Shown one piece after another: positions 30,515 to 59,400 of a stretch of 64,000 nucleotides of DNA. The notes under the pieces are model-generated. The model was not told where the DNA came from. It made no database searches and worked only from the letters and a program-made list of their open reading frames with translations. The stretch spans positions 15,934,001 through 15,998,000 of the forward strand of contig OX637293.1 in NCBI GenBank assembly GCA_951799445.1, written 5' to 3'. Position 1 is the first letter of the stretch; each line of letters begins with the position of its first letter. The position numbers and the translations under genes were made by a program. This stretch comes from Pseudisothecium myosuroides. Taxonomy: Eukaryota; Streptophyta; Bryopsida; Hypnales; Lembophyllaceae.

Positions 30515-32707
30515 TTACAAGGGGAATGGGCCAGGAGCGCCAGTCCATCCTTGCACGCACCGCAAAAGAGGTCGAATCAGCTTCCCCTCCGACATCGCCT
30601 CGAACACTTTCTGAATTTCAGTCCCGGGAGACACAGTTCGCAAGCCGGACAGCAATTGCGTCCCGAGCTCCGACCTCACGAATTGGTACAGCGGGTACGT
30701 CCTGCAGGACTCAGTCCTGTTCGGCACTGCCGAAAGGCCCTTCTTGTCATAAGCTTCCCGCACCAACGGCACCACCATGCGCAACCGCTCTTGCACTTGG
30801 GCCTCGAAGATGGGGATCTGCTCGAACACGGAGCGGGAGGCGTCTTTGAGGGCGTGGCTGACCAGCACGCCTCGCAGCTTCTCCATCAACGGGTACGTGT
30901 CGGAGGACGCGTCGTCGATGTACGAGAACACGGGCTGACGCTCCACCACCAGCAGGAGGTCCTTCTCGCAGAACCGCGACGGCAGCAGGGCGCCGTCCTG
31001 GCCCATGAACAGCGTCTTCTTCGCCGCCTGCAACACCACTTGCTTCACGGCGGACTGCATGGTCTCCTCCACATGGCGGAGGTCGATGGCTTGGCACAGT
31101 CCCACCAGGAAGGTCGAGCTCATGAGCTTGAGAATCTCCACGGCCTCCTCCGTCTTGCGCGCGGACACCAAGCCCAGCGAGTTCACGTCCTGGTTGTGCT
31201 GCTCCGCGCTCTGGACGTGGGTGGTGACGGGGTTGGCCAGGTAGTTGAGCTCGGAGAGGTACGACGCCATGGCGATCTCGGCGCCCTTCATGCCGTAGTC
31301 CAGGCTGGGGTTGGGTCCCCCGCTCAAGTTGGAAGGCAGGCCGTTGTTGTAGTAGTCGTTCACGAGCTCGGAGAACTGTGCAAACATGAGCTTGCCGATG
31401 GCCGCCACCGCCAGGCGCATGTTGTCCATGGAGACGCCGATGGGTGTGCCCTGGAAGTTGCCCCCATGCAGCGCGATCCCCCTTGCGGCGTCGATGATGG
31501 GGTTGTCATTCACGGAGTTGATCTCACGCTCGATGGCGTGTGTGGCGGTGCGGATGACCTCGATCTGGGGACCCAGCCACTGGGGCGAAGTGCGAAGTGC
31601 ATATCGATCCTGCTTGGGCTTCTTCAAGGGATCGGTCTCGTTGATCTTGGCCGCGGCTTTCATGAAGTCGCTCCCGTCCAACAGCCACTCCATCACCGCT
31701 GCAGCTTCCATTTGGCCCGGGTGATGCTTCAACTTGTGCGTCAAGGGGTCGGCGAATTCCGGCTTCCCTTGCATCACTTCACAGAACAGGGCGGATAAAA
31801 CTTCCGCAAGCAGCGCCAGCACGTTGGCATCGAAGCACACCGTGGAGGCCAATGCCGACCCGACGGCCGTCCCATTCACCAACGCCAGTCCCTCCTTGGG
31901 CTGCAGCTCGAACGGTTTCTCCACGCCCGCCATCCTTAGCCCCTCCAACGCCGAAACCTCCCGGCCATCTGGAGTGCAAGCTCTTGAGTTGGGTCGGCCA
32001 GTGAGCAGCCCCGCAATGTAAGACAAGGGCACCAAATCCCCGGAAGCGGTGACCGTCCCACGCAACGGCAGCTTGGGCGTGACATGCGCGTTCAGCAGCT
32101 TCTCCATGGCCTCCAGAATCTCCCAACGGATCCCGGAGTAGCCTTGCATCAAGGTGTTGGTGCGCACCAGCATGGCAGCGCGTGTGGTCTCCGCGGGCAG
32201 CGAGTGCCCCTTCACCAGCACTCCCGCATTCAGAAAGCGAATGAGTTCGCGCTGCAGCTCCACGCCTTGCTGCGTGCGGCGATGGGAGGTGGCGCCGAAT
32301 CCCGTGGTCACTCCGTAGATGTCCCCGCCGTTCATGATCTTCGTGAGCACCCAGCTGGAGGACTCGTCCACTCTGGCCTTGGCGTTGGCCGCGTCCAGCA
32401 CCACCGCCACGTCGGGCCGGCGTGCGATGGCCGTGACTTGTCCCACGGTGAGATTGACGCCCTCAATCGCAACTTCGGTCGAGTCGAAGTACGTCGCCAC
32501 CATCTGCTTGATCTCATCTAGATGATTCCCTTGCAGCTTGGCGGCCGTCTTCGCCCAATTGAGCGGATCTGCTCGAGAAACATCTTCTTTGGGAGCATTG
32601 CTGCAGAAGCTGGGGGATGTCGTCGTTTTCTTCAAGGCGGCGGGCTCGGATCCCGCATTGATGTAGCTCTGGGATGACGCCATGAAGTCGAATTCCACAG
32701 CTGCCAT
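30515..32707 (-). CDS. PAL: Phenylalanine ammonia-lyase (copy 1), intronless
   Basis: One uninterrupted 730-aa frame. The start is taken at the ATG at 32707 ([13 protein letters not shown]) because the shared coding similarity with copy 2 begins there; 13 codons upstream are open but dissimilar. The enzyme deaminates L-phenylalanine to trans-cinnamate, the entry step of phenylpropanoid metabolism, as a cytosolic tetramer. Visible landmarks: the catalytic Tyr131 in YGVTTGFGA, the Ala221-Ser222-Gly223 triad in [19 protein letters not shown] that cyclises to the MIO electrophile, and Phe in ELIRFLNAG at the selectivity position (Phe favours phenylalanine, His favours tyrosine). NDNPIIDA and a full C-terminal shielding domain ending GAPGPFPL are present. 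Angiosperm PAL genes usually have one intron; none is seen here. A TATATATAC run lies directly before the ATG. Confidence 0.97.
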
Positions 32708-33487
32708 TGTATATATACCCTCGAGCTCCCCACCTGGTCTCAGCAATCAATCGAGGATCGATCTAGTTGCCCCCTGAATTCAGCGCTTCACTCAACTGCA
32801 AGCAAAGTTCTTAATTCAACTACTTCTTCAAGCGTTCACGGTGTGCGAACGTCCTTGCAATTTTCAACCAAGTAAGTAAGAAGTTCGACTTGGACGAATG
32901 GAGTTGGTATACTATCCAACAGCTGAAATCTTGTGTTTGCAACTGTATGCAAGATTAGCAATGTCTAGCAAATGTGGTTGCAAATATTTGTAGTGCAGGC
33001 TCGAAGTGCTAACAAGTGAGATCGACAGACCTGAGAATGATGAGGAATTGGGATGACAGATGTGTATTTGTAAGCGGACGAGATTGGCATCTGGTGGTGA
33101 AGGAATTGGGTCGTTGCATTGGGTCTCTTGACTGCCCTGGCAATTGGGCATGTGGGCAACTGAAGAATTCGTGGCTTGTCCTGAGTTGTGTTTTTTCTGA
33201 CAACGCGGGGCAGTTTCAATAAGTTTGGGAAGACTGTCCCAAAAGTGCATGGAAAGGCAAAGTGGGTCGGGGATTCTCGTTGAAATGTTCACCGGAAGTC
33301 CGCGTGCAGTGGTTGGCCCTGTGCTCAGGCATGTCGGCTTCAGGCCTTCAGTCCACTGTGTTGAAATTTGGTTGGAGCTGGGCTGCGTGTTGGGTGGACC
33401 TTCTCGGCAATTGTATACAATTTGCAGACTTCATCAGAGTTTGAAAGAATTACTCCAACTGCAGATATGGTCTCCATGATATTAACT
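32708..33487. promoter_or_regulatory. Upstream region of PAL copy 1, conserved in copy 2
   Basis: The 120 bases next to the ATG are almost identical to those of PAL copy 2 (TCAGCGCTTCACTCAACTGC at 32780 and 59351), and similarity continues in patches to about 33480. Conservation beyond the coding region marks the shared promoter and leader. The only TATA-like string, TATATATAC, touches the start codon, too close for a normal TSS spacing, so the true core promoter is uncertain. Confidence 0.5.
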
Positions 33488-37172: not shown

Positions 37173-38518
37173 TACAAAGTTTCAAGAATGAATATGAAGT
37201 ATTTATTGTTAAAATTTTCTTCATGTATTTGCAATTTATTTCTTCAACATGAGATATATTTCCTCAAGTTGCAAGACCTACAATTTTTGTCGATTAAAAG
37301 TTTGTGGTATGAAACTTTGCATCCAAGATGGGTAGAATCCCATCTTTTACTTGTTAGTAGAATCCTTGTTTTTTTAAATCAACTGCTTAGATCTTGCAAT
37401 TAATGAGTTATTTACTCTAAATTTTTTGGAGGGTGTACTCCAATAATAATTAAACTAAGAGATTGTAATATTAAATCTATTAACAAGTAAAAAGTAAAAG
37501 AATAGAGCATTGGTTTAGAATAGATATTTTGAGAGTAAGTTTTTGCTTGAAACAACCTAAGAACTTAGAGGAAGAATGACATTGTCTATGCACAACCCAT
37601 ATTTAACTAATTATGGACAAATGCGCGAATTATGGACAATTTTTTCACTTAGCCTCCACTGCAGAGTAGAAAAACATGCTTGAAATGATGGAAAAGTATC
37701 GGCTGCCCTCCCACACATTGTGAAAATGTACATTTGGTAAGTCATAAAATGTTGCCATGAAGGAAACTTTGTTTTCCAAATGGAAAAGGAAGTAGTGGAG
37801 TTGCTTATTTGCAGTGGTTTTCGTGTGTGGTCAGAAGGTATGCCTATAACCGCGCCCCTGAAATGAAGAAAACTCCCAGTACAATTCCCATAATCCGAAT
37901 CCATGTCAGCCTCAAACAACATGTAGTCTCAGCCTGGTGAAATGTATCGGCCGGCAGCCAACAAATGAGTAGACTAATGTGCCTAGCGAGAATAAAACAG
38001 AGCGGAGAACATGAGTGAGAGCTGAGCAATCCGGTTGAGTAGCACACTAAAGAGCATTATTTGTAAAACTGTCCTTAGCTGAACTTCATATAAACTGATA
38101 ATAGAATTCCACAAGTTCGTCGCCATTCCATTACGAAATGATGTGTCATCCACCAAGCAGGAGTACCAAAAACGTTTTAGAGATTGCTGTACAGACCTAC
38201 ATTCCATGTGTCGGCCGACAGCCGATACATATGGTAACCATTAAACGCCCAGCCTGAACTAACTTCAGACATATAGTTACTCCCTTCCTGACCCCAAACG
38301 AGAATACAAAATGTGGACGTTCCTGGCTTTACCATTGATTGAAATCATCTTGTGGATAGAACAGTGCGCTTCGGCAGCAGCAAAGAGTGTTGTATCGGCT
38401 GGCAGCCGACACCTGCATCCGCGTACGAGAATCCCTGAGCGGAATGTCCTTGTAAATCCTCTGTAATCCGAATTCCGACTATCGGCTGGCAGCCGACCGA
38501 TCCGATACCGTAGCAGCG

Positions 38519-41500
38519 CTAATCATGTCTTTGTTCGTCTGCATCTGTGTCCAATGTTGCTCCCGCGGCCTCTAGATTTGCAAGTGCAGCAGCCACGGAT
38601 GCCTCCGGGATGACATGAGAGTTGGGAGGTCCATTCTTTGCATGCGAGGGCATTCTGTGCGAGTACAAGACCATGCTGACATGTACTATCTGTGGAAGAG
38701 TGAGTTCCTTGTGCCATCTCCTTGTCCAGCATTCCCTTGCCACCAGCGCCTTTCCTTCCCTCTTCGCCTTCATTGGAGTCCACCACTCTATTGTGAAGTT
38801 CCCATACGATGTCCCTGGAGTCCTGTTGACACATTCCAGTACCCGTCCCAACCAAACCGGCAGGTAATTGTTTTGACATGGTCTACAGAGCACAAAGTCT
38901 CCTAGCAAAACATCCCTGAATGGATTGAATGTCAGTCTGGGTCTGTCTTTGGCTGGTCCGCAGTATAGAGTATTCTCTGGTTCGTCCTCCGGAGTGGTGT
39001 CCAGTGAATGATATTCTTCTGTCCCCTCCCCCGTAAAAGCGTCTCCGTGATCTCTTGTCCAGTCTGAGAGCGGCCACAATCCTTCTCGAAGCTCTGCTTG
39101 ATTTTGTGGCATGACTGAATTGATTTCCTTGTAAATTTTTTCCCAGTAAGCCACACACCCCGCCATTTCCTGTGCATATCGCTTGTTTCTGGCCATTCCC
39201 AATTTCCAGAATTCAATGTACTTTGCGATTCCATTTTTGATGAATGTTTGTTTCTCCCTGCATTCGCTCGCCCTTGCGACTTCTTTCTCTGCATTCCGCC
39301 TTTCTGTATTAATCTCCACGTTCCCCCAGAGTGCCTTGTAGGGCACTGGTCTAGGATCCCCTTGCGGTATTTTTGGTCTCCCATTTTCGTCCGCTGTCCA
39401 CATTTTGACTGGAGGCCCCGGAGGCAGCCACGCCGAATCCGTTGCCCTTTTCTTGTACCTCATGACCGGCCATCCCCGATCATCTCCATCTTCGACTACA
39501 TAGAATTTGAATATGTGTTTATCTCCGAGTCCGATGATCTTGTTTACGCCCTCATGATGGAATCCTCTGAGGTATTCCTTGAAGTCTGCGACCTCTTGTA
39601 CGACCTCCGGGACGAATGCCACCGTCTTCTGCGAGTCCATGAACGCCTTCATGAGATCTGCTAGTACATACGTGTTCTTCTTTTTGATGAGTTTCGATAG
39701 ATAACTGAAGTGCGCGTCAATGTCTTCGTGCGTATGCCCGACAATTAGAAATCCGACTGTAACTTCCTTAAATATGCGCCTCGCGGTGAGTAATGAGCAG
39801 AAAGCCATGAGGAACCTATTTTTGTTGTCCTTTGCTGAGTTGTCCAGTTGCAAGAAGAGCTTCCTCGGCAGTGGAATATGAGGCCGCCCTGATGTTTGAA
39901 TGTTATTAACCTTCTCTTGTGCCTGCGGAATGGATGAGTTGCACCTGGATTTTCCATGCATCAGAGCCTCAAAGAAGCTATTCTGCGGTGGTGATTTGAA
40001 GAGCACCTTCGACTCCCGCACAGGTGGTGCTTCTAGCGCCCTAAGTACCCTACAGAGCGACGAAATTGTGAAATTTGAGTCCCCCGGCCAGAGCGAGGTT
40101 GAATAATGCGCATATGCGCCATCTCCATGGCCATGTGTGAGCATGCCCGTGCAAGATATTGGCAATTGCCCTAGCCCCGCGGTGGCCTTTGTGACGCGCA
40201 TCATCCTTGGAATCGCTGTCTTCTTGGTGTCCATTTTATCATGAATGATGCACAGGAACTCTGATGGATTTCTGACTGACTGCGCGGTCCATCCTCCATA
40301 GACATTTCTACATGCCCTTTGGTAGTTGAGATGTCTCTCTCTGTCGTCGACTAGCGCCTGCCACTCATCACAGCCCCTGGGATACTTTGCAATACACTCT
40401 ACGAGGAAGTCACATTCTGTGCATTTTGAGAAATTGCTTCCCACCGCCTTGACCTCTACATTTTTGAAATGTGTCTTCCGAAGGCGGCTGATCGCGGACT
40501 GCGAGACTGGCTCCAAATTGCATACCCTATTGACCTGAAGGACATCATTTGGCAAATGAGGTTGCGCAATAAGGTTGAGCATTTGTATCGGCCGGCAGCC
40601 GACAGAGATGCAGAACCCTGACTGAGGAAAGCAGAGAAGTATGCCTAAAGCGCCTGCCAACGTGCTTCCATTCCATAAGTACATGGTATCGGCTGGCAGC
40701 CGACAAACAGTAGTATGTAATGTCTAAATAGAAGAAGATGATGAACTTACTGAGTTTACTTGTTCGCGCATGTGATCCCACGTCATTGCCGAGGGCACGA
40801 CCTTGAGACTGTCTACGCGCTTATTCCCAACTAGCCTGAATTCGTTTGGCATCTGATCTGCATTCTCATTGATGATTGTCATGAGAGTTGCTTGGGCTTG
40901 AATAGTTTTCGGACGTGGTCTTGTGGACCTCGCATTCCCATGCGATCCGCTGACCGATCCTCCTGCGGCCGCCGCCTTGTAAACATGGTATGCCGACCTT
41001 GAGACCCCGTGAATGATACACCAAGCGTTTTCGCATACGTCTCTATTTGCAAGAGTAATGACTTTTTTACCTGGAACGATCCCCGGATGTATTTGAGTGT
41101 GCACCGCATATGCCATTTCCCTCCTTGTCTCGAATGTGGCTGCGAAGAACTTCCTTCGTATATTTTTTGTTTCCTCCCAAGGAAACGTCTGGCAGCATCT
41201 GAGATTGCAGCACTTTTGCGAGCTGACCGCACGTATCTCCAACTCCGAGATCTTGAGCTGCAATTTGGATTTTCCACCGCGATCCTTGTGAGTGACTTTC
41301 CTGCGCACCGACCGGTAGGGATTTCTGGGCACCCCCTGACATCCGTTGTCATCCGGCTCCTCCAGCAGAGCAGCCTCTGAGCAGAGCGTGACCATCTCCG
41401 AGAGTAGCCTTCCCCCCTCTAATCTAGCGTGTGTTATCTTCCACCGCATGGATGTCATTTGCAGTTCCTCATTTTCCGAGACCAACATGACCCCTACCTC

Positions 41501-42685
41501 TGAATCACTGAGAACGCGATCGTCGCAGGCTTCCTCCGGTAGGCAGACTTGTATCATTGCTCTTCCGAAGACTGAGAAATCGTCATTGAGAAGTTGGCAG
41601 TATTTATTCCTCCAAAGAGGTCTGTCCATGATGGGTAGCCCCGACTGCACGCCGTCCGAGTTTGCGTTGGATTCTCCACTACCTCCATGACCCCTAAAGT
41701 CGACCGCCTGAACAGAGCAGTCATTGCCGCTGCTCGGATAGCTGCCATCTACAGAGGTACTATAACCATGACCATTGTGAATTCCATGAGCAGATCCGCA
41801 GCATTGCCCGTCCGATGAGTAGAGCCTATCCTCTCGATCGTCTTCATCCGATGCAGTGGCAGGAATCTGTTCATCGATCGAGTCCCCGAATTCCACGACT
41901 ACATCGTTTGAGCTACCTCCACTCTCCGGGCTCCTATCTAGCTGTGAGTGGATGAGATAGTCTCCTGTAATATCTGTCGGCTGGCAGCCGACATTCACGG
42001 TCGATGAACTAGGTGCCACGACCGGCCTCACCTTGTATCCACTCCATAGAATTCTAAATCCCACACAGCGGTTCAGTGTCATGAATTCTGGAATCTCGCA
42101 GTAGGCATTTTGATCCTCGAACTCCTCGAGGACATGCAGAAGCTTGACGACGACGAAGAAGCTGTGTGGTACGCGGAAGCCATTCCAATATCCCTTCGGT
42201 GAGCATTCTACAATGGATCCCACACCAGCATACTGCAGGTCATTACCGACCATCATCAGAAGTACAACCTCCATATTGACAGAGAGTGACAGGAATTGCT
42301 GTATGGGTTTCCCGTCCGTGTTTCCATGTGTCGGCTGGCAGCCGACACCAACGGAAGATGACCCTTCCGACTCCGCATAAGGATAAATATTTTTTGCCTC
42401 CCATACAATCGACCTTCCTGCGCATTGCCGGAGGAAGTGCAAGTCTGCCTCCGGAAACGGAATGGGCATGTCGAGGTTCGATGGAACATCTATCACCCGA
42501 ACGCAAACGAGGCATGGATCCTGCTGCACCACCTTCTCTACGACCGCCCTACCTGCGTAATATAGTCCTTCCAGTGTCAGCGCGACGACTGCTCCCTTCC
42601 GAATCTTCAACCTCCCAGAGCCTCCATTTCTTGTGAATGCTTCAATTACAGTGGTATCCAGCCCCGGCTCATCAGATGATGTCAT
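38519..42685 (-). CDS. Transposase-like protein with DUF7869-type core (1316 aa)
   Basis: Two exons: 42685-40751 (donor AACTCA/GTAAGT, phase 0) and 40534-38519 (acceptor GTCCTTCAG). The start is taken at MTSSDEPGLD; 43 further codons upstream are open but run through a palindrome copy. The C-terminal exon has a Cys pair (SKCTECDFLVE, residues about 682-692), CIIHDKMDTKKTAIP (Asp at about 744 and 747), LFLQLDNSAKDNKNRF (Asp876), and IVGHTHEDIDAHFSYLS (about 909-925). The spaced acidic residues and the LDN/GHTHEDID pair are typical of DUF7869 proteins, which have an RNase-H-like transposase look; catalysis is inferred. The single intron (216 bp) contains two palindrome copies. Two more copies (41975 and 42329) are translated in frame as GCQPT. 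It is divergent to the ParB/methylase/FCP1-like gene. Confidence 0.8.
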
Positions 42686-43404
42686 GGTACACAATCTAAA
42701 ATTAAAACCAGCGATGTCGAATCTCTTGTTCAGTTCAATCGCGCTTCCCCTTGTCGGCTGGCAGCCGATACAACAATATCCATCACAGTAGACGACCTCA
42801 TTGATGAGGATCACCTATTTTCTGAACATGAGACTGACCTTGAGATTGTGTCGGCTGGCAGCCGACACCTTGGACTGCATGGATATGAGAAGGACCTAAA
42901 TCGAAACAGCTGAGGACCACTATAGCGGACAATATGAGCGCTGCAAATGACGATGACGCGTCTCAGACTGGATGAGAAACCATGGACGGATGAAAAAAGT
43001 GGATGAAATCGTAATGATTGCGCCTCCCGGCTGGCAGCCGTCACTTCAGTAGGGAGGGGGGTATACTCCCCTGATCACTTTCATTTCAGCTCATTTCTAA
43101 CTCTCCACGCTCAAGATCAGTCTCTCTCTCTCTCTCGCGCTCTCTCACTCATGCTCTCGCTCTCTCTCGTTGTCTCTCCCACAGTCTCCCTGTTTTCTGG
43201 TCCCACGGCTTGCAGCCGACACTCCTCGGGTCATATAGTATCCGCTCCCCCGCCGCCGCATTTTTTAGGTCAGCCGCTCCGCAGATTAGGTCAGCCGATA
43301 TCAGATCCAGGGCAGCCGATACAATTGGAGGCAGTAGTGAGCAGACGACCTCACCAGCCGACAGGAGACGCAGAGCAGCCGACACGACTTCCCTGATCCA
43401 CAAG
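42686..43404. promoter_or_regulatory. Divergent promoter region of the transposon
   Basis: This 0.72-kb region separates the two start codons. It contains palindrome copies at 42753, 42849, 43027 and 43205, a CT-rich tract at 43111-43190 (a Y-patch/GAGA-like promoter feature), and the phased half-site array at 43271-43384. Confidence 0.6.
43271..43396 (+). promoter_or_regulatory. Phased array of CAGCCG(A) half-sites, 21-bp period
   Basis: CAGCCG starts at 43271, 43292, 43313, 43355 and 43376: intervals of 21, 21, 42 and 21 bp. The slot at 43334 is degenerate. All half-sites have the same orientation and are the right half of the 19-bp palindrome (CAGCCGAYA). The array ends just upstream of the ATG at 43405. 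A 21-bp period is two helical turns, so bound proteins would line up on one face. Confidence 0.7.
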
Positions 43405-46400
43405 ATGGCAACTGCCGATGCAGTCAGTGAAAGGTACCATTCAATCCCTGTATCGGCTGGCAGCCGATACAGTTTCCCCTTCCATGTTTTCCATGTTTGT
43501 ATACGCTTGTTCATTGCACGAATTCTGTGTCGGCTGGCAGCCAATACAGTTTCCCCTTCCATGTTTTCCATGTTTGTATACGTTCGTTCATTGCACGAAT
43601 TCTGTGTCGGCTGCCAGCCGACAGCATCAGCGCCTCCACTTTTTGTAGTCTGAATACATTATCGGCAGGCATTCAATATAGTTCATTTTGTTGTCATGAA
43701 TTACCGGAACTTGTATCGGCTGGCAGCCGATACATTGTACCCCCTTACCGTATCGGCTGCCAGCCGACACTATTATGTAGCACGCTGAACTCATGTCTTC
43801 TGTGTGCAGGAAACCTACCCTGCTCTTAAGACTCCTCGGTGAACAGATTCCGAATTCCGGGATATGTTCCGACGGGATTTCACCACGCGCAACTTGGAAA
43901 GCAAGTCCAGCAATTGAAGAGTGGGGCCTTTGCTGGAGGGAGTTGACTGACGGGATAGTCGAGATTGCGTGCTCGTACAAGATGAAGGGAAACATGGTCC
44001 CGGGCAAGGGGAAGGTCATGTCCGTTATGGCGGTCGGTGACGCTGTTCATGTCCTCATCTGTCTGGTCCCACTTGCGAATCCGGAAGGGGAAGCGGACTA
44101 CATCGCGGTGGAGTTGCCCTTCGACAAATGCACGGAGGAGGTCTGTGGAAATATGGCGATGGCGATGGGCATGACATTCGAGAAGAACCATCCCGTGGAT
44201 GCTGAGGACCTGGTGCAGGGATGGTATATTCTCAAAGCAGAAAGGGATGACCGTAATGCGCTTGCCATTCGGGACCTGGAGAAAGGAAAGAAGAAGGTGC
44301 CCTCCGCAAGAAAGAAGCCGTCCAGCACACCGACTGTGGAGGCGGAAACTGCTGTCGTGGAGGCGGGGTCACCGAGCAAACCCAAGAGGAAGGGGAAAGA
44401 TCCCAAGAAGGCCTTCAAGATCACACTGGACGAGGCCCTACGTCGTGGGAATCACCTCACCACGAAGACAAAGGACAGCGAGGTGAATGCCATCTACGAG
44501 GCGCTGGACAAGGGGCTGGGGCATGCCTTCCCCTACAAGAAGCAACGTCTTCCGGGGGTCATCCAAGCTGACAGACTCCACATTGCACCAGATGATCTCA
44601 AGTACAGGAAGATCGCAAAGGACCGCCTGAAACAGGTATTGTAGCTCAAGATCTCTTCATTTGAACTGCCTTATATATAATACTCTACTTTTTATTCTAT
44701 CGGCTGCCAGCCGACACTTTGATGTAGGGTTTCTAATTGTCCAGGAAATCGTCATTGTAGGTGACAACGATGTATAAGGGATATGGGTCCATTCGAAAGA
44801 AGCCGGAAATCCATGGAATTCCATTGAAGCGGAAGCCCTTGGAAACCGACAAAGGAATGGATGCTGTCATGGACAAGTGTCCCCTTGTGGGAGACACCAC
44901 AACGGTGAACGGTGTTCCAGTGCCCTGGTGGAAAGCTCCTGATGTGCATTGGTACATCATTGGTGGTCAGCATACCGTTACAGCATGCCTCGAACTCGCC
45001 AAGAACTTCCCCGATGGCTCGGACGCAAAGAAGGATCTTCTGGAATTTGAAGTCATTCCGGTTTGGGCGGAAGACGCGGACACTCTCGTCAGGGTTTCAA
45101 ACGCCTTGAACTTGAACATCGCGGAGAAGGTGGCCAAGGAGACGTTCCGATCTTGTGCGGAAATGGGGAGACCGGCATGGGTGAAGGCGGGATGTCCGGA
45201 GCCACATCACGGGGGTGGAAAACCGTCAACTGCGTTTGAGGTAGGCACTTCCGCTCAGCGTTCATTCTGATCATCGTATACGTGATGTGTGCACTAGTTC
45301 AAGACCTGCTTCTGAGTCGGCTGCCAGCCGATACAGATTCTCTTACAATTTCATGTTGTGAGTTGTGAGTCGTCTCTGTCTCTCGGCTGCCAGCCGATAG
45401 ATCAGCCCGAGGTTCTGAATGTTGAGGACTTGCACTTCCGCAGGCAGCGAAGCTGAAGGTGATGGCGCACTTCGTGGAGGAGAAAGTGTCATCGAAGCTG
45501 CCCCTCATCTTCATCAAGAAGAACACCTGGGAACTGTGGACGGAGGTGTTCGACGCGTGGGAGAATGGAGAGCTCATTGGAGATGACGGGACTCTTCCGA
45601 TACAACTCGTTAATCGGAAGCCGCTCACGCACATCACAAAGACGGATCTCACGCCGACTCTGGGGCTGCGTGATTCAGACCTCTGCGAACTGGCGGACGA
45701 GATTGTGGCCCTTCGCGTCAGCATCAAGAACACAGCCAAGGCAAGGGGCTCGGGAGTGATCACCCTGTACGACTGGTGCAAGGACAAAAAGCTGGACAGG
45801 GTGGTCATGAACGAGATCATGTGGCTCCGCGAGAAGTTTCCCCTCCCCTGTAAGGATGCGACCTGGGTGCCCTACTCAGACGAGGCATGGCAAAAACTCG
45901 CGGACAAGGAGGGGTACTCTCCGGGTGTCGTCAGAAACGTCTGGAAGGATGTCAAGAAGGTCACGGAGGGGAACACATGGCTGAACGGACGCGTCAACCC
46001 CATGAACCCGACCACGGATAAGTCCACGGACGGAAAGGCGCCGGGGGTATTCTACACGACATTGACGAAGTACTCCACGGTTGCGGTTCCACAGGAGACC
46101 GTCGCAGGGAGTAGTTCAAACCTCAAGTATGAATGTCGCCTGGGACAGAACATCGACGACGTCCTGGATTCGCTTCGGGAAAGCGCGGAGACAGACGGGC
46201 TGCAACCTACGGACAAGAAGTTCTTTGTGCTCTTCGGGTATGCAAACGACGGGATTCTGTTGGGGATTAATAAGAGCGATTTCCAGGCCATCGCCAGATA
46301 CGTCGAAATTCCCGGGGAGGAGGAAGGCCCGAACAACCCAGCACGCGATGGATATATTCCCCTCCCCATGCTCTTCATTGGGGGATCACGCTTCCGAGAT

Positions 46401-48728
46401 TCGGTTGCATTGGCGTCGTTATCGTCATCGTCATCGTGGTACTTTCATACGGTCTATTACCAGCCATCTCCGCGGGGAGGCTTCAGGAGAGAAGAGATCG
46501 AGCCCAAGCCACTCGTCACACTCTCTCTCACCTTCCCCAAGCCAGATGACGGAGCGGAGCTATTTGGAGTCTTTAAGAGGATCACCGGGATCAACAAGCA
46601 GCTCGACTGGTATCAAGTGGATGTGGACGGGGAGGTCGACTGGAACGGAGGAATGTGTGGAGTGGGACATGGACTCCTAGAACGCTTGATGAAGCCCACG
46701 CTCAAGTCCAAGGACGCTATCGTCATCAACGTCTGGGGAGGTGGAAACGTTACAGAGATCGCTCTGGTAAGATTTCTGGAACTCCATTTTCTTTGACTCT
46801 CACTCTGTCGGCTGCCAGCCGATACATCAAGTTACTAACTCCAAGTCATTGTTCACGTAGAGGAATGGCCGCTCTGTGCTGGAGTTCGTTCTAGAGGAGG
46901 AAGGACTGGCAAAAGCGAACGAGCGAGTCAAGGGAATGAACCTGGTCTCTGCCGCATATGTGGTACCCCCCACACGGCCGCTCATGATACGCGACACCGA
47001 GGAAGGTGGAGAGTCAGACGTCGAAGTTGTGGTACCCAATCCACCGGAAGGACGTCCCTCAACTTCCAGGGCAAATCGGACGACGTCGACGGAACGACAG
47101 CCGGAGACGCAACTGCCGCAAAGGAGAATGAAGGGGACACCGGATTCCGCGGTTCATTATGGAACCTCATCCCCTCGGACTCCAACTGCAGCTAACAGGT
47201 TGGCAACAGATCCTCATGGCGGACCATCAACCGCAGCGGACGCAATGGTGGTGGATTTGCATGCCATCCCCCAGTCCGAGGAAATTGTCAGGGGCGGAAC
47301 AGCACCTGTGGACGTTCTCGCGGCGGACCGAACACCGCAATCCGGGGAAATGCTCATCGCGATGGGGAGGCCTGCCACAGCGCAGGATGTCGCTATCGGC
47401 GGCCAGACGATACAGGGAACCAACTCACAGGGTGAGCCGCGACGCGGAAGGAGCAAAGCAACTGGAGGTGGAAAAACTTCAAAGGCAGTGGACTCGCGGC
47501 TCTCGGGACCCTCCAAGGAAAAACGGGTAAGGGATACTGGAGACGCAGAAGGGGGAGCCGAATCAAATGTCGGGCAGGAGATGGACTTCCCGAACGAACA
47601 GATGTCGCCCAGTCCAGCATCTAAGCGGACGCGAGTTAGAGGTTCGTAGGCGATAGACATGCTGGGGCCAAGGGGGGGTATCACTACACTAGGTCTTGTA
47701 ATGTTAGTTCTGCATGGCACGGACTTGTTGCTCCTAACTCGTCTATCGTAGCCTCTATCGATGCAGACTAGGATGTGGGTAGCATGTCGGCTGCCAGCCG
47801 ATACATTCTAATGCTACTCTCATGTTGCTCTGGAAGTGCATCTCATGGTATGTGGATTTCATCTTGCATTGCAGATTATCACACTCATCATTCTGAGCCC
47901 TCTGAGGACAAAGTGTCCGAAGGCGGGGACGAATGTAACCAGCCGGATCTCGATACGAGAGAAAAGGCAAAGGTCGTGGACACGCCAGCGGTGGCGTCTC
48001 ACAAGTTGTTCTTGTTCCTAGAGGTCCAGGGAACACTGATGTATTATGAGCCGCTCATTCTCAAGGCGGCCACTATGCAGCAGAGGTCGACCGTTAGAGA
48101 GAGGCCAGGAATTAGGGAATTCTTGCAGTTTTGTATGAGGCAGGACATTGTCATTGTCTACTGGTCGTATTTGCCCTTGGCTCAACTCAATGCGCGGATG
48201 CATAATATGAGGTGGGCGGTGCCGGAGATCCCAGAAAATTACATTGCCTTCGGACAGCAAATGTGTGACGAGAGTGCGTATAGGGATCCAGCCACTCCTG
48301 GGAAACCCATCTACCTAAAACGTCTCGCACGGATCATATCGTCCGTGCCGGATCTTAGGCAGAATGGAGCCTCCCTTACAAACTCATTGATCGTGGATCA
48401 CGTGCCATACAGAAACGTACTCAATGATCCATTCAATGCGGTTCATCCACCCGCTTGTACCCTATATTCGGAGAAACCCAAGAAAAATGCTAATCCTCCG
48501 AAATTACCCTTTCTCCAGTCCACGATGATTCCGTTCATCGAGAACTTCCTGGCCTCGGGACTATCGGTCCCGGAATTTTGTCGGGCAAACGCTCGCATTG
48601 GGCTGCCGCGGTGCATGCCGGGGTCACCCTTACACAAGCTCTACGTCCAGGTGACACCGGAGTGCCAGAAGGGATTTGAGGGGCCGAACACAGAGGTGGG
48701 AACTCTCGTCTTGGGAGGCACCAGCTGA
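43405..48728 (+). CDS. ParB-like / DNA-methyltransferase-like / FCP1-like fusion protein (1430 aa)
   Basis: Six exons with matching phases: 43405-43433, 43810-44635, 44761-45240, 45444-46766, 46861-47641 and 47875-48728. Residues 1-285 are unrecognised and end in a Lys-rich stretch. In exon 3, WYIIGGQHTVTACLELAK (about 350-367) followed by FEVIPVWAEDADTLVRVSNA resembles the ParB N-terminal domain (G-E/Q-H-R...A, then a VPV strand and a D/E-A-L-x-L helix). At the exon 4/5 junction, DAIVINVWGGGNVTEIAL then RNGRSVLEFVLEEEGLAKAN (about 869-906) follows the C-terminal SAM-binding block of N6/N4 DNA methyltransferases (D-P-F-x-G-S-G-T-T...A-L-x-x-G-R); the (D/S/N)PP(Y/W) motif was not found. Residues about 950-1146 are Ser/Thr/Gly-rich. 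Residues about 1190-1420 look like an FCP1/NIF HAD phosphatase: FLFLEVQGTL in place of the DxDxT loop, RPGIREFLQF, and SLIVDHVPYR. The nucleophile Asp is absent (Glu1196, Gln1198), so it is probably a pseudo-enzyme. ParB-methylase fusions are known in prokaryotes and phages; the C-terminal addition is unfamiliar to me. Confidence 0.75.
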
Positions 48729-48799
48729 GGACGACTGGTACTGACACACAAGGAGGCGCGAAATGTATCGGCGGCCAGCCGACATAGATGTAGATTGTT

Positions 48800-49860
48800 G
48801 TATATAGGCTCTGGATGTTGGTGGACACTTATTTCTTTTGTATAGCATTTGTAATCATTATTTGGATTAATAATCACCTGTAATTAAGAAATTACAGGAC
48901 ACGTATCCGAATTCATGAACGGGATACAGGCGCGCTATATGTCGGCTGCCAGCCGACACTGTAGTCCATTTATGTATATAGGCGGGCAACTGACATGGAG
49001 AATTCGGGCACGGACACTATAAGCAAGTTCCTCTGGATGTTGTAGGCGCAGGCGCTGAATCGCCACTGCGCAGCCTCTGCTACACGTAATGAAGCGCTCT
49101 CGCAGACAGGTCTCGAACCTACGCGGGATCACGTCACTACGTGTAACAGAGGTTGTGCAGTGGAGGTACAACGCTTACGTCCAAACATTGGACGAACGTG
49201 CTTACAGGGTTGTGCAATCAACGGAGACTCGGAGGAGGCAGTGGAGCACGGAACGTCTACGCGCGCACGGTGTCGGCTGCCAGCCGACATAGATGCACAT
49301 GTAGGCATTTAGGAGGGATATATAGATGGACACCTTTTCTCTATCAGAGACATTTGTAACCATCATTTTGATGTAGAATCAACTGTAATAAAGGGAATTC
49401 AGGACGCACATCCGGATTCAAGACATGGATGTCAGGCGCGCTCGGACCGTTCGAATGCTTCCTTCTAAAGTTGAATCGTTCGGGCACGGATACTGTGAGC
49501 GAGTTCCCGGGGAGGATGCAGGCACAGGTGATGAATCTCCACGCAACAATTTGTGCTATACATAATGAAAGGGTTCCGCAGACGGATGTACTTCGCGGGA
49601 TATTTTCGAAATCAGGTGGAATCCGGTCACTGTGTATAGCACAGATTGTTCGGTGGAGGTACACCGCCTGCGCCTCAAACAGCCAAAGGAACTTGCTTAC
49701 AGGATTCGGTACGAAACGAGGACTCGCGGAGGATGCTTTCGAACGCGTCGATAGCGTCAGACGGACGGACATGTCAACTTTTTATTCATATCATACGTCT
49801 GGAGTCAAGGAGTGCTGCTTGGGGTTCAGATTGATTTTCGGTTCACGCAAACATGTCGGC
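48800..49860 (+). repeat. Right subterminal tandem units (about 510 bp) with internal hairpins
   Basis: Two consecutive units share, in order, TGGACAC, ATTTGTAA(T/C)CAT, an ATTCAGGAC-like step, GGCGCGCT, a CACGGA(C/T)ACT block, and a palindrome copy near the end (49269 and 49854). Each unit holds an inverted repeat: CTCTGCTACACGTA at about 49074 with TACGTGTAACAGAG at about 49139, and TGTGCTATACATAATG at about 49551 with a GTGTATAGCACA counterpart at about 49632. Large hairpin-bearing subterminal repeats are common at DNA-transposon ends. Confidence 0.6.
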
Positions 49861-50153
49861 TGCCGGCCGACATCAGATGTGCATGCCTTGTGTGCTCTTC
49901 AATCCTGTCAACTATTATTGGGGCGTCTCGTTACTGGTCTCATGTGGGATCTGACGGGTATAAAATACTCATTGTCGCAATGGGATTTCAAGTGGGACAC
50001 GCAGGGGGGCTTCAAAAGGGTCAATGCAGGTAGGAAGGCCATGGTTGACGCACGGGATTCTCATACATGTCATAGAAATGGTAGCAGTTGTTTGGTGGGG
50101 GGAGGTATGCGGAAATTACCTACGGGGATGGAGATGTTCTGGTACAGAACATC

Positions 50154-50245
50154 TGTGGTATCGGCTGACGGCCGACATCTTTCGAATGGGTAGAAATGGA
50201 TCGGAATCGTATTTCGAAGGATGTCGGCCGTCAGCCGATACCACA
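50154..50245. repeat. 33-bp inverted repeat near the right end of the transposon
   Basis: The arms 50154-50186 and 50213-50245 are complementary with one mismatch, with a 26-base spacer. Each arm contains one variant palindrome copy (CGGCTGACGGCCGA and its complement), so two diverged copies face each other exactly. Confidence 0.85.
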
Positions 50246-50739
50246 ATAGCAATGCTCACTTCACATGATTCACTGTCGTTATCTACTCTTGCTTCAATTC
50301 AACATGCACTGACCTCGTCGCGTTTCAGGATTATAGGAATTCCGAACGAGGGGCTAATGGAGTTCAGTTCAGTTATCGGCTGACAGCTGATACTTATTAT
50401 ACAGGCTACTTAGCTGATTTCTTTCATTCAATTGGCACGAACAAAAATACCGGATTGCCTAGCGAATATTCCCTCCACCCGGAAATGATTCTCTACAATT
50501 ATAATGTTTTGGTCACACTATTTCATTGAGGGAATTCTGGAACCATGCATTTGCTATGGTCATGTCACTCCATTTGCTAGGCGTGTTTTCTTCAAGTCTG
50601 CTTCGTTCAGTTACGTTCAATGACATTGGAAGTCAGAATTCGGGATTCGGCTGTTTCGGCTGCCGGCCGAGTGATTTCTGGACTGTGGATTTGTCCAGAA
50701 TTAGTTAAATATGAGATGCACGCTCCGTGTAGAGGTTGC

Positions 50740-51257
50740 GGCCCCGGATACGCAACTCATGTATTATATGCAGGGGTCATCGGCATTAAAACAGCTTAGA
50801 GGATGGCTTTTGTAAAAATCATAAAAAATTAAAAGGACCAAAAAGTTAGGTGAAGATCAAATTTTATTTATTTTTAAATGTAAAAAATGTTGGATTGTAT
50901 ACATATTAGAAAAAAACTCACAATATATATGAAGAATTGAAAAACATATGCATAGTTTTAAAATTCCATACAAGAAGTTTCCTCCAATTAAAATTAATTT
51001 TTTATTTAAAATCTCAAAAGTTGTGTAGCTTGTCGCATGATACATGTATAAAAAAAACTCATATAATTAGTTTTTTAATGCTATTATTGTCCTCAAAAAA
51101 ATATTCATTTCATGTATATGATTACATTTTGAATTCCTTGTCAAAAAGGCTATAAGAATTTTCTATGTCAAAGTAAATTATAACTTTTGAAATTGGACTA
51201 AAATGCATTGTAAGTGATTATAATTAAGGTCATATAATATGGAAGTTGCGTACCTGG
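50740..51257. mobile_element. AT-rich MITE (518 bp) beside the large transposon
   Basis: Inverted ends GGCCCCGGATACGCAACT (left) and AGTTGCGTACCTGG (right) are flanked by GGTTGC at 50734-50739 and 51258-51263. The duplicate locus has an uninterrupted GGTTGCAA at about 63018, so this is a second insertion in copy 1, only about 25 bp from the right end of the large element. The superfamily is not assigned. Confidence 0.65.
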
Positions 51258-52554
51258 GGTTGCAACCAATGTCAGTCCTTCAAACACGTCAAACTCTTGT
51301 TCCATTCTTTGGAAGGGATCATAGATGGACATGGAGCAACTTGGAGAAGAACTACTTTACAAATTGCATTGTGTAGTAGTTGCAAGAAACCTTTGCTGTT
51401 TTTGGCTCAGAACAGCTTGAATATTGAAGTATTGTGACTTTTGGAATAATTTTTTTTAAATAAAATAAAATTTGAGTAATTTATAAAGCATTCAAAATAG
51501 CATGTGTGTGAAAATTCAAGCCTACAAAAAATATGTCTAAAAGTTATGCACAAAAAAAGAATGATGAAAAATGCAAAATAGTAGATACTTTGGAATTTGA
51601 TTTTTAGATAATAGTAAAATATTCAAAAAAATAAACAAAAGAAATCCATTTTTCTAACTTGAAAATGCTTCTTTTTAACCATTTGCATTTTTAGAGGAAA
51701 AAAATTGTGTTCTCTACATGTCCACAGAGATAGTGCACTTTGGGCACATAAGGAAGGTGGACACTTTATTATTTAAAAAAAAATTCTTCATAGACTTGTA
51801 TAACCTTAGTAGAAGTCCTTGCATCCCAATCTTGACCTTCAAATTTGCATTTTGTAGTCAGAAACAATACTAAACCCCCCCAAAATGGCCATGGTAGACA
51901 TCTGATAGTGGGGTCAATTTTAAAATAATAAACTAATTTTAAATAAAAAAGATTACTCAAATCTACAACTACCACACGTACCTTCATTTCAAATTTAATA
52001 GAAAACAGACATATGACGCAAAAGTTATGAGCAAAAAAACCACCTATCCAAGGTCAAGGGGACAAAAAAAAAGGACAAGTGTTTCTTGCAACAACCTTGT
52101 GTGCTTAGTTAGTAGACCATGTACAGTCATTTTCAAGGTTACACATATAATTTCACATGTATTCATTCATGATTTTGATGTTGTTATGCTCAACAATAAA
52201 TAGGTATCTCCTTCAATTTCTTTCTTATTGCAACTTTGTTTTTCCAAAATCATGTAAATTGCCATTCTTCGTTTCTTGTAGGCATTGAAGGCAACGACTT
52301 AGAAGTGTACTAATATATATAGAGTACTACATTTGAATATATTTGATCACAGTTTTCTTCATATGAGCTTAAGAAATACATCACTGATAATTCCAAGAAG
52401 TTTAAATTGCTATTGTCTCCATTTTTCAAAAGCTCAATCATACTATTTCAAGTTCATTTGCAAATTCATTTGCAATCATTCACTCAGAACTTGTTACTCC
52501 GTACTTTTCAACCCTGGAGCGCCATTTGTAATAACCATTCAAAGACCACTATGA

Positions 52555-53297: not shown

Positions 53298-54755
53298 ATG
53301 GCTTCCCAGACGGCGGTGAGCGCTGTGCTCCCCAGGGGACAGCCTCGTGCGGATGGGCCAGCGTGCGTGTTGGGCATCGGCACTGCCGTGCCTCCCACGG
53401 AGTTTCTGCAATCGGAGTACCCGGATTTCTTCTTCAACATCACCAACTGCGGCGAGAAGGAGGCGCTCAAGGCCAAGTTCAAGCGCATCTGTAAGTGACC
53501 ATCTCGAGCCACACATGAATGAATTAATTCACTTCAGATGTCTGAATACTCATTCCGGCCCACCTGACTTAATTGCTTGCCGATGAATCCCATGATGAAG
53601 TAGTTCAATGTGGATGAAAGATTGGAGGGAGTTTGAGTTCTGATGCAAGCTGCGTTTCGTAGTCTATCCAATTTGATTTGAGTCGAAGAAAGTTATATAT
53701 GCTGTACTTGTGGTGCTTTGAAGTAAATTGACGTGATATGTGTGTGATCCCATTCCACAGGCGACAAGTCGGGCATCCGGAAGCGCCACCTGTTCTTGAC
53801 GGAGGAGGTGCTGAAGGCCAACCCCGGCATCTGCACGTACATGGAGCCCTCCCTGAACGCACGCCACGACATCGTGGTGGTGCAGGTGCCCAAGCTCGCA
53901 GCCGAGGCCGCGCTTAAGGCCATCAAGGAGTGGGGTGGCCGCAAGTCCGACATCACGCACATCGTCTTCGCCACCACCAGTGGCGTGAACATGCCCGGCG
54001 CCGACCACGCGCTGGCCAAGCTGCTGGGCCTCAAGCCCACCGTGAAGCGCGTCATGATGTACCAAACCGGCTGCTTCGGCGGCGGCTCGGTGTTGCGCGT
54101 GGCCAAGGACTTGGCCGAGAACAACAAGAACGCGCGCGTGCTGGCCGTGTGCAGCGAGGTGACGGCCGTGACCTACCGGGCCCCGAGCGAGAACCACTTG
54201 GACGGGCTGGTGGGCTCGGCGCTCTTCGGGGATGGCGCGGGAGTGTACGTGGTCGGGTCGGACCCCAAGCCGCAAGTGGAGAAGGCTTTGTTCGAGGTCC
54301 ACTGGGCCGGAGAAACCATCTTGCCCGAAAGTGATGGCGCCATTGACGGCCATCTCACGGAAGCAGGGCTCATCTTCCATTTGATGAAGGACGTGCCCGG
54401 GCTGATCTCGAAGAACATCGAGAAGATTCTGACGGAGGCGCGCAAGTGCGTGGGCTCCCCTGCGTGGAACGAGATGTTCTGGGCCGTGCACCCAGGAGGC
54501 CCCGCTATTCTGAACCAGGTGGAGGCCAAGCTGCAGCTCTCCAAGGACAAGATGCAGGGCAGCCGCGACGTGCTGCTGGAGTACGGCAACATGTCGAGCT
54601 CGTCGGTGTTGTTCGTGTTGGACCAGATTCGGCAGAGGTCGTTGAAGATGGGTTCTTCCACGCTCGGGGAGGGCAGCGACTTCGGATTCTTCATCGGCTT
54701 CGGACCGGGCCTCACGCTCGAGGTGCTGGTGCTCCGGGCTGCAGCCAATCAATAG
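53298..54755 (+). CDS. CHS: Type III polyketide synthase, chalcone synthase family
   Basis: Two exons, 53298-53490 and 53761-54755, give 395 aa. The intron splits the Cys codon of KRIC/DKSGI, the conserved intron position of plant CHS genes. Catalytic residues are present: Cys in YQTGCFGG, Phe in SALFGDGA, His in [12 protein letters not shown], Asn in [11 protein letters not shown], and the GFGPGLT C-terminal signature. Pocket positions known from alfalfa CHS (Thr132, Ser133, Thr194, Thr197, Gly256, Phe265, Ser338) appear retained (ATTSG, SEVTAVT, IDGHL, LIFHL, NMS). CHS condenses p-coumaroyl-CoA with three malonyl-CoA to naringenin chalcone. [13 protein letters not shown] departs from the usual VTFR(G/A)PSDTHLDS, so another starter specificity is possible. 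It lies between two PAL genes that supply the upstream step. Confidence 0.93.
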
Positions 54756-56489: not shown

Positions 56490-59400
56490 AACACCTGATC
56501 AATTGCGCAATTGTGCAGGAAATGGCTATGTGGATTCCTCTGTTTCATGTTGACAGTTGATATTCAGATTGTGAAAGAAAACGTGAGCATGTGAGCAGGA
56601 CGGCAGATGTCGATTCTTGTCAATTTCCAGTCCATCAGACCAGAATTTAATTTATCCCTGGCCAGCGTTCTTTTCTGTCGGTTTATTTGAAGATGCAAGT
56701 TCTTTTCTCGTGTTCCAGTATCGAACGTGGGAAGGTTATTCCGACGAAACTGGTCAACTGTAAAAACCAACTCCTCAGAACTACTTCAATCGGGAGACGC
56801 AAACGAATGGAAATTCCGATGACAACCACGGTAAAACTCGAAGAACCTCATGAACTGTAAATGTAGACGCCCATTGTGACGTCCAAAGAATGTTATAAAA
56901 TGCTCAAGCACGGTCCAATGTGGAATCCAGTGCTCATCAAATGTACACGCGGAGTCACAACTAGTGACTCGAAAATTGTGTGTCGATGACTAATCCGACT
57001 AGGAGTGAAAGAATCTCTACTGACGGGAATGTACAGTGCCTATGAGACTAACGGCCGGAACGAACGAACGAAATCCTTGTTATCTAGAGGAAATGACAAG
57101 GGGAATGGGCCAGGAGCGCCAGTCCATCCTTGCACGCACCGCAAAAGAGGTCGAATCAGCTTCCCCTCCGACATCGCCTCGAACACTTTCTGAATTTCAG
57201 TCCCGGGAGACACAGTTCGCAAGCCGGACAGCAATTGCGTCCCGAGCTCCGACCTCACGAATTGGTACAGCGGGTACGTCCTGCAAGACTCAATCCTGTT
57301 GGGCACCGCCGAAAGGCCCTTCTTGTCATAAGCTTCCCGCACCAACGGCACCACCATGCGCAGCCGCTCTTGCACTTGGGCCTCGAAGACGGGGATCTGC
57401 TCGAACACGGAGCGGGAGGCGTCTTTGAGGGCGTGGCTGACCAGCACGCCTCGCAGCTTCTCCATCAACGGGTACGTGTCGGAGGACGCGTCGTCGATGT
57501 ACGAGAACACGGGCTGACGCTCCACCACCAGCAGGAGGTCCTTCTCGCAGAACCGCGACGGCAGCAGGGCGCCGTCCTGGCCCATGAACAGCGTCTTCTT
57601 CGCCGCCTGCAACACCACTTGCTTCACGGCGGACTGCATGGTCTCCTCCACATGGCGGAGGTCGATGGCTTGGCACAGTCCCACCAGGAAGGTCGAGCTC
57701 ATGAGCTTGAGAATCTCCACGGCCTCCTCCGTCTTGCGCGCGGACACCAAGCCCAGCGAATTCACGTCCTGGTTGTGCTGCTCCGCGCTCTGGACGTGGG
57801 TGGTGACGGGGTTGGCGAGGTAGTTGAGCTCGGAGAGGTACGACGCCATGGCGATCTCGGCGCCCTTCATGCCGTAGTCCAGGCTGGGGTTGGGCCCCCC
57901 GCTCAAGTTGGAAGGCAGGCCGTTGTTGTAGTAGTCGTTCACGAGCTCGGAAAACTGCGCAAACATGAGCTTGCCGATGGCCGCCACCGCCAGGCGCATG
58001 TTGTCCATGGAGACGCCGATGGGTGTACCTTGGAAGTTGCCCCCGTGCAGCGCGATCCCCCTTGCGGCGTCGATGATGGGGTTGTCATTCACGGAGTTGA
58101 TCTCACGCTCGATGGCGTGTGTGGCGGTGCGGATGACCTCGATCTGGGGACCCAGCCACTGGGGCGAAGTGCGAAGCGCATATCGATCCTGCTTGGGCTT
58201 CTTCAAGGGATCGGTCTCGTTGATCTTGGCCGCGGCTTTCATGAAGTCGCTCCCGTCCAACAACCACTCCATCACCGCTGCAGCTTCCATCTGGCCCGGG
58301 TGATGCTTCAGCTTGTGCGTCAAAGGGTCGGCGAATTCGGGCTTCCCTTGCATCACTTCACAGAACAGGGCGGATAAAACTTCCGCAAGCAGCGCCAGCA
58401 CGTTGGCATCGAAGCACACCGTGGAGGCCAATGCCGACCCGACGGCCGTCCCATTCACCAGCGCAAGACCCTCCTTGGGCTGCAGCTCGAACGGCTTCTC
58501 TACTCCCGCCATCCTCAGCCCCTCCAATGCCGAAACCTCCCGGCCATCTGGAGTGCAAGCTCTTGAGTTGGGTCGGCCAGTGAGTAGCCCCGCAATGTAA
58601 GACAACGGCACCAAATCCCCAGAAGCGGTGACCGTCCCACGCAACGGCAGCTTGGGCGTGACGTGCGCGTTCAGCAGCTTCTCCATGGCCTCCAGAATCT
58701 CCCAACGGATCCCGGAGTAGCCTTGCATCAAGGTGTTGGTGCGCACCAGCATGGCAGCGCGTGTGGTCTCCGCGGGCAGCGAGTGACCCTTCACCACCAC
58801 TCCTGCATTCAGAAAGCGAATGAGCTCGCGCTGCAGCTCCACGCCCTGCTGCGTGCGGCGATGGGAGGTGGCGCCGAATCCCGTGGTCACTCCGTAGATG
58901 TCCCCGCCGTTCATGATCTTCGTGAGCACCCAGTTGGAGGACTCGTCCACTCTGGCCTTGGCGTTGGCCGCGTCCAGCACCACCGCCACGTCGGGCCGGC
59001 GTGCGATGGCCGTGACTTGTCCTACCGTGAGATTGACGCCCTCGATCGCAACTTCGGTCGAGTCGAAGTACGTCGCCACCATCTGCTTGATTTCATCCAG
59101 ATGATTCCCTTGCAACTTGGCGGCCGTCTTCGCCCAGTTGAGCGGATCTGCTCGGGAAACATCTTCTTTTAAAGCATTGTTGCAGAAGCTGGGGGATGTC
59201 GTCGTTTTCTTCAAGGCGGGCTCGGATCCCGCATTGATGTAGCTCTGGGACGACGCCATGAGGTCGAATTCCACAGCTGCCATTGTGTATATATCTGCGA
59301 GCTCCCAGGTGGTCTCAGCAATCAATCGAGGATCTAGTTGTCCCCTGAATTCAGCGCTTCACTCAACTGCAAGCAAAGTTCTTAATTCAACTACTCCTTC

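Follow-up and report, generated by a model that had tools for sequence, protein, structure and literature searches.

A 64,000-nt window (the whole stretch of DNA analysed here) on contig OX637293.1 of the moss Pseudisothecium myosuroides contains a large DNA transposon. The element carries two divergent genes, for a predicted transposase on the minus strand and an accessory protein on the plus strand, together with an array of about 30 copies of one palindrome. We set out below the boundaries of the element, as fixed by comparison with its other copies in the 388-Mb genome.

Ends and copies of the element

37594..50717, no strand assigned: whole transposon, 13,124 bp; left repeat and matching right end in 31 of 31 copies examined
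37590..37593, plus strand: left target-site duplication GCAC; the duplication is exact at 4 bp in 28 of 31 copies
50718..50721, plus strand: right target-site duplication GCAC, from flank comparison among 31 copies
37594..37622, plus strand: left terminal inverted repeat, 29 bp, 3 mismatches against the right repeat
50689..50717, minus strand: right terminal inverted repeat, 29 bp, partner of the left repeat

The termini of the element read AACCCATATTT, and a 23-bp core of the terminal repeat occurs exactly twice in the window, once at each element end, with 0 occurrences expected by chance. Terminal repeats of about 25 bp, claimed in an earlier note on this DNA, are thus present at both ends, at 29 bp and with three mismatches. 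That note had also placed the element's end at 50715 and read a 6-bp ATGCAC target duplication, and the other copies overturn both points. The 4-bp flank pairs are identical in 28 of 31 copies (8 of 930 when flanks are mispaired), and agreement at 5 bp or longer was found in 0 of 31. We therefore rejected the 6-bp duplication: the other copies show that AT belongs to the element's own right end, which in the window copy reads GAGAT before GCAC, so the duplication only looked 6 bp long and the end lies at 50717.

The search of the same genome for further copies, which the earlier note had proposed, used the left 601 bases of the element as query. At least 31 genomic places, the window copy included, match these bases at 99-100% identity, a lower bound because 40 of 63 candidates were scored; 9 further places match the left end over just 49 to 128 bp. 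The 30 other matches start at the base equivalent to window position 37594 or at most 7 bases earlier, and the two terminal repeats, found in all 31 copies, lie at a spacing within about 320 bp of 13.1 kb. Two of the three copies with mismatched duplications are reciprocal (ACAT/AAAT and AAAT/ACAT): these are inverted copies 18 kb apart on contig C6 (G000:C6:17940649-17953770 and C6:17971951-17985072), whose swapped flanks may reflect inversion or conversion between them, or an assembly artefact. The third is flanked by AAAC and CAAC.

Full sequences were read for ten of the 30 other copies, which with the window copy make a set of 11. The ten measure 13,068-13,397 bp and are 0.05-1.07% divergent from the window copy. 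The nearest of them, 16.5 kb downstream (G000:C7:16001232-16014353), differs by 7 substitutions and has its own duplication, ATAA, and is therefore a separate insertion; it looks like a local hop. When the exon boundaries of the window copy are applied and the copies' own splice sites are taken as given, the accessory frame is open in 6 of the 11 copies, the transposase frame in 9 and both in 6. The ratio of nonsynonymous (N) to synonymous (S) polymorphism (pN/pS) among the 11 copies is 0.48 (104 N, 67 S; p 3e-6) and 0.51 (80 N, 45 S; p 4e-4) for the two genes, broken copies included, so both frames have been kept by selection between transpositions. C-to-T decay among the copies proceeds at CG and CHG sites at about 3.5 to 5.5 times the CHH rate, the footprint expected if resident copies are methylated by the host. 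Thus, the element is a multicopy DNA transposon of the moss that was apparently recently active, and its description in the earlier note as autonomous and fairly young agrees with the copy number, the low divergence and the copies in which both genes are open.

A predicted DDD transposase and a degenerate-looking methyltransferase-like partner

40751..42685, minus strand: transposase exon 1, 645 codons without a match in Pfam; identity of 66% to its counterpart in an older subfamily copy, with a ratio of nonsynonymous to synonymous divergence (dN/dS) of 0.18
38519..40534, minus strand: transposase exon 2, with the DUF7869 core, the predicted DDD catalytic domain and a C-terminal BAH-like domain
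43405..43433, plus strand: accessory exon 1, placed by frame and splice phase
43810..44635, plus strand: accessory exon 2, from the gene model; 65% identical in the older subfamily copy
44761..45240, plus strand: accessory exon 3, with a ParB-like GGQHTVTA motif (likeness at motif level only); lowest dN/dS of the stretches compared, 0.08
45444..46766, plus strand: accessory exon 4, amino-methyltransferase-like predicted fold with no catalytic motif at the expected site; 10 homologues
46861..47641, plus strand: accessory exon 5, end of the methyltransferase-like domain, then a presumably disordered linker
47875..48728, plus strand: accessory exon 6, FCP1/NIF-like domain

Both gene models have open frames and fitting splice phases, as the earlier note had seen for two divergent multi-exon genes; the transposase has 2 exons and 1317 codons including the stop, and the accessory gene 6 exons and 1430 amino acids. 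Pfam matches the transposase to DUF7869 (PF25273, E 8e-43), a family annotated as being of unknown function and absent from the open-licence PubMed Central (PMC) literature in a full-text search. The transposase core models as RNase-H-like, with Mos1, SETMAR and retroviral integrases at the top of a second-look fold list, and the predicted DDD triad is invariant in every row with a residue at the site (D99 in 40/40, D231 in 44/44 and D271 in 46/46, of 46 rows in total). The minus-strand gene is thus predicted to encode a DDD cut-and-paste transposase, in agreement with the earlier view of DUF7869-type proteins as transposase-like. The C-terminus of the protein, within 38519-40534, models as a BAH-like, chromatin-reading fold, and MazF-like rows score similarly.

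For the middle of the accessory protein, a predicted-structure search returned DNA or RNA amino-methyltransferases as 50 of the 50 matches listed, many of them METTL3; the model of this region has a predicted local distance difference test score (pLDDT) of just 58, and the expected catalytic site is placed by that same model. The motif-I stretch is 34% identical over 56 amino acids to a phage DNA methylase, a score that beats all 2000 shuffles. Active N6/N4 DNA methyltransferases carry a DPPY-type catalytic motif. No such motif was found in the accessory methyltransferase segment or at the expected site in the 10 homologues, and the expected catalytic strand reads FGYA, FAYS, FGFS and the like across the accessory protein and these homologues. 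The sequence at motif I is INVWGGGN, and motif II has another residue in place of its acid. Six of the 10 homologues have loose [DNS]-x-P-[YFWH] matches elsewhere, including D-V-P-F downstream of the expected site in P0126-P0128. The prediction is of a methyltransferase-like fold whose catalytic and cofactor residues have been lost. In exon 6, the Pfam NIF match has an E of 0.0036 for the isolated domain and 0.22 for the whole protein, both short of the curated cut-off.

The 10 homologues were recovered with exon 4 alone; the full accessory protein had no homologue among 7,988 candidates scored, and an IMG/VR scan showed no close relatives. PDB sequence searches (two alignments, exon 3) gave no convincing match, and Pfam across the 11 members of alignment A1 gave just three single-member matches, at E about 0.1. 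The ParB-like region gave no convincing match in Pfam, NCBIfam, PDB, phages or plasmids, its likeness being confined to the GGQHTVTA motif; one cyanophage stretch matched at E 5, within a 90-amino-acid protein that has no Pfam family. A search across phages with a Geobacillus phage methylase as query, aimed at ParB-methyltransferase fusions, showed no ParB-named feature among the 60 of 1,200 records listed.

Both genes recur together in an older subfamily relative, L085. Neither of the findings that, by the earlier note, would refute its reading was made: at least 31 copies share the termini, and L085 has the two genes side by side, not apart at unrelated fixed loci. Over 16 kb read, including its continuation, L085 has the left end, the divergent layout of the window copy and 22 palindromes; its right end was not found in those 16 kb. 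Its transposase homology covers nearly the whole protein (residues 1-1306) at 66-79% identity to the window copy, and its accessory homology spans residues 10-730 at 65-70% and then breaks. Between L085 and the window copy, dN/dS, taken at dS above 1.2 and so near saturation, is 0.08 in the accessory exon-3 stretch, 0.16-0.19 in the other accessory stretches and 0.09-0.18 in the transposase; stop codons interrupt L085 twice in the accessory stretches compared and four times in the transposase. In two near relatives, L083 and L084, the accessory gene was not seen in the 9.0 and 14.2 kb read, and the L084 transposase gene is interrupted by about 7 kb. Judged from these substitution patterns, both genes are under purifying selection, and L085 shows them inherited together.

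The palindrome array

The palindrome TCGGCTGSCAGCCGA has 32 matches in the window at up to 3 mismatches, all of them within the element, as against 0.74 expected; the earlier note had counted about 30.

37699..38496, no strand assigned: left cluster of 5 palindromes, starting at 37699, 37947, 38211, 38395 and 38482
40588..40703, no strand assigned: 2 palindromes in the transposase intron
41977..42345, no strand assigned: 2 palindromes within transposase exon 1, read as VGCQPT peptides
42754..43767, no strand assigned: central cluster of 9 palindromes, between the genes and in accessory intron 1
44700..47801, no strand assigned: 6 palindromes, 5 in accessory introns 2-5 and 1 degenerate in exon 5
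48768..50670, no strand assigned: right cluster of 8 palindromes

Although coding exons make up 63% of the element, they hold 3 of the 32 palindromes, with 29 outside (p 5e-10). The centre base also follows the layout of the genes. With 4 palindromes centred on A or T set aside, there are 11 G and 1 C to the left of 43405 and 3 G and 13 C to the right (p 3e-4), so that, the genes being divergent, the centre is mostly C on each gene's coding strand.

All five palindromes of the first 0.9 kb have counterparts at matching positions in L083, L084 and L085; in L083 one of these is degenerate. They are identical to the window copy at 62, 64 and 66 of 75 bases, respectively (83-88%), whereas the DNA around them is identical at 412, 384 and 384 of 795 (48-52%; Fisher p 2e-7 to 8e-12), in counts that treat gaps as mismatches and with aligners that favour repeats; L084 is close to L085, so the three comparisons are not independent tests. 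Between the genes, L085 and the window copy agree at 123 of 135 palindrome bases (91%) and at 528 of 961 bases around them (55%), gap columns excluded. Within the set of 11 young copies, variability is no lower in the palindromes (22 of 551 sites) than in the remaining noncoding DNA (150 of 4329). On base identity between subfamilies, the palindromes are conserved in place and under selection.

In other mosses, peptides resembling those encoded by the two palindromes of transposase exon 1 (VGCPPT in Ceratodon, VGGPPI and IGGPPT in Physcomitrium) adjoin the same transposase blocks, by eye and at the protein level. This hints that palindrome sequence varies among mosses and position does not. 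A loose by-eye pattern for such peptides matches 10 of the 130 proteins in the homologue set, and the match in P0048 looks like chance.

We also considered whether the palindromes shield resident copies from methylation, which was not borne out: C-to-T changes at CpG sites, counted over sites times copies, number 16/1536 in palindromes and 36/4110 elsewhere in noncoding DNA (p 0.53). At CHG sites the palindromes have fewer such changes than other noncoding DNA (10/2062 versus 49/4473; p 0.016, uncorrected and among related copies).

Outside the element, two aromatic amino acid lyase (PAL-type) genes flank the transposon at 30515-32746 and 57040-59358, and their proteins are 99% identical (727/737). 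To the right of the transposon, and before the second PAL-type gene, lies an open frame with chalcone/stilbene synthase domains (53748-54755). About 12 bp past the right duplication, an AT-rich stretch of about 530 bp (50734-51267) with 37-bp inverted repeats (78%) is possibly a miniature element.

Classification and a proposed role in self-recognition

Sola elements are described as having a DDD enzyme, 4-bp duplications and terminal inverted repeats of 11-1124 bp; most are 2-9 kb long and some over 15 kb, and the moss Physcomitrella is a host (PMC10741241). The element here shares the 4-bp duplication, the predicted DDD triad, terminal repeats within that range and a moss host, and it differs in pairing a length of 13 kb with a second conserved gene. 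CACTA/EnSpm elements have CACTA termini and 3-bp duplications, which the termini AACCCATATTT and 4-bp duplications do not fit, and we rejected that membership. The element therefore likely belongs to the Sola superfamily. That it forms a superfamily of its own, in which DUF7869 enzymes define a new DDD transposon group, is doubtful: such a group would be consistent with the annotation of PF25273 and the absence of DUF7869 from the literature searched, and the likeness to Sola is one of description, but the descriptions of Sola or Sola1 match the duplication, the triad, the moss host and the presence of a ParB/methyltransferase-like partner on the opposite strand.

The partner gene has a precedent in the 21.5-kb element Sola1-1_Ec32 of the brown alga Ectocarpus, where an opposite-strand gene is reported to encode a ParB-like and amino-methyltransferase protein; similar proteins are cited from green and red algal transposons, and the authors suggest that the Sola1-1 accessory protein binds and modifies self DNA (PMC12477816). 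Both elements are giant, with an accessory gene opposite the transposase, and the amino-methyltransferase domain reported in Ectocarpus has its counterpart in the fold predicted here. By description, the moss element differs in its missing catalytic motif at the expected site, its FCP1-like tail and its palindromes, and, whereas Sola1-1_Ec32 has a reported ParB-like domain, the moss ParB part is recognisable at motif level only. Among the matches listed from full-text searches of the open-licence PMC literature, we found no elements with such an accessory protein beyond those cited.

VANDALs are Mutator-like elements. The Arabidopsis protein VANC21 removes methylation and binds a short motif that its own element carries in a one-way array in introns, in intergenic DNA and in noncoding DNA at the ends (PMC5735166); Mutator-type elements make 7-12 bp duplications (PMC10741241). 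VANDAL21 and the moss element thus share a non-transposase protein and a like-oriented motif array in the same kinds of DNA. They differ in that YAGTATTAY of VANDAL21 lies in tandem repeats and the moss palindrome at fixed, dispersed positions, and in that the moss element has a DUF7869 enzyme, an unrelated-looking accessory protein and 4-bp duplications. A ParB-like motif together with many palindromic sites on one replicon also recalls bacterial ParB-parS, from which the moss element differs in having neither ParA nor a parS sequence and a ParB likeness at motif level. Relative to those parts of the Sola, Sola1-1 and VANC descriptions that we drew on, two features are new: the degenerate methyltransferase and the array of selected palindromes. 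The earlier note had called the architecture undescribed and the partner gene unlike standard accessory genes; these two features uphold that view, whereas the Sola fit and the opposite-strand ParB/methyltransferase protein of Sola1-1_Ec32 limit it.

We give even chances to the proposal that the element is marked through binding of the accessory protein to its palindromes. In that protein, the ParB-like and methyltransferase-like regions would form a sequence-specific DNA-binding platform that loads on the palindrome array, and the bound array would mark the element as self. Host silencing might then be countered, as VANC does for VANDAL elements, or the 13-kb element might be held together for transposition; by analogy, this suggests a VANC-like self-recognition system. 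More tentative, and possible rather than probable, is the full scheme in which a ParB-like, dead-methyltransferase protein coats about 30 parS-like palindromes, tells self from host, and shields the element from silencing or pairs its ends, the system having been co-inherited since the subfamilies split.

Other readings assign the palindromes or the protein differently. The palindromes could be transposase binding sites that form a transposition assembly array, on the model of the subterminal repeats of CACTA elements, while the accessory protein does something else. Palindromes are concentrated in the centre and near the ends, with 5 within the first 0.9 kb and 8 within the last 2 kb, which points this way, as does the conserved N-terminal transposase exon of 645 residues (dN/dS 0.18), which has no Pfam match; we nevertheless consider this unlikely, since palindromes are also found throughout the introns and between the genes, which sets the array apart from a purely subterminal one, and the described precedent for an intronic motif array involves an accessory protein (PMC5735166). 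Action as RNA hairpins in the element's transcripts, in processing, export or small-RNA control, would account for a centre base that follows transcription and switches between the divergent genes (p 3e-4), and most palindromes do lie in introns or around genes. Several, however, are found beyond the predicted genes, within a few hundred bases of the ends, and the VANC system, which works by DNA binding, also has its motifs in one orientation (PMC5735166), making the hairpin reading improbable.

Still less probable is an active DNA methyltransferase that marks its own element. The predicted fold, the loose [DNS]-x-P-[YFWH] matches elsewhere in 6 of the 10 homologues and the binding-and-modifying proposal for Ectocarpus Sola1-1 (PMC12477816) speak for such an enzyme, but the expected strand lacks a DPPY-type motif in the accessory protein and all 10 homologues, motif I is INVWGGGN and the motif-II acid is replaced. 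The notion of two unrelated host genes between chance inverted repeats has virtually no chance of being right: it is refuted by the at least 31 copies that share both ends, mostly with different 4-bp duplications.

Self-recognition and self-protection of large plant transposons are known from few cases, VANC among them, and this family offers intact, near-identical copies for which both a candidate protein and a candidate binding site are defined. In land plants it is a counterpart to what algal transposons have in their ParB/methyltransferase proteins, with an enzyme that looks degenerate in the moss, which would make DNA binding, in place of chemical marking, the favoured role. For DUF7869, annotated in Pfam as being of unknown function, the element points to a likely role as a DDD transposase. 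If the proposed binding is right, this would be a land-plant transposon able to recognise its own DNA through an accessory protein and its palindromes.

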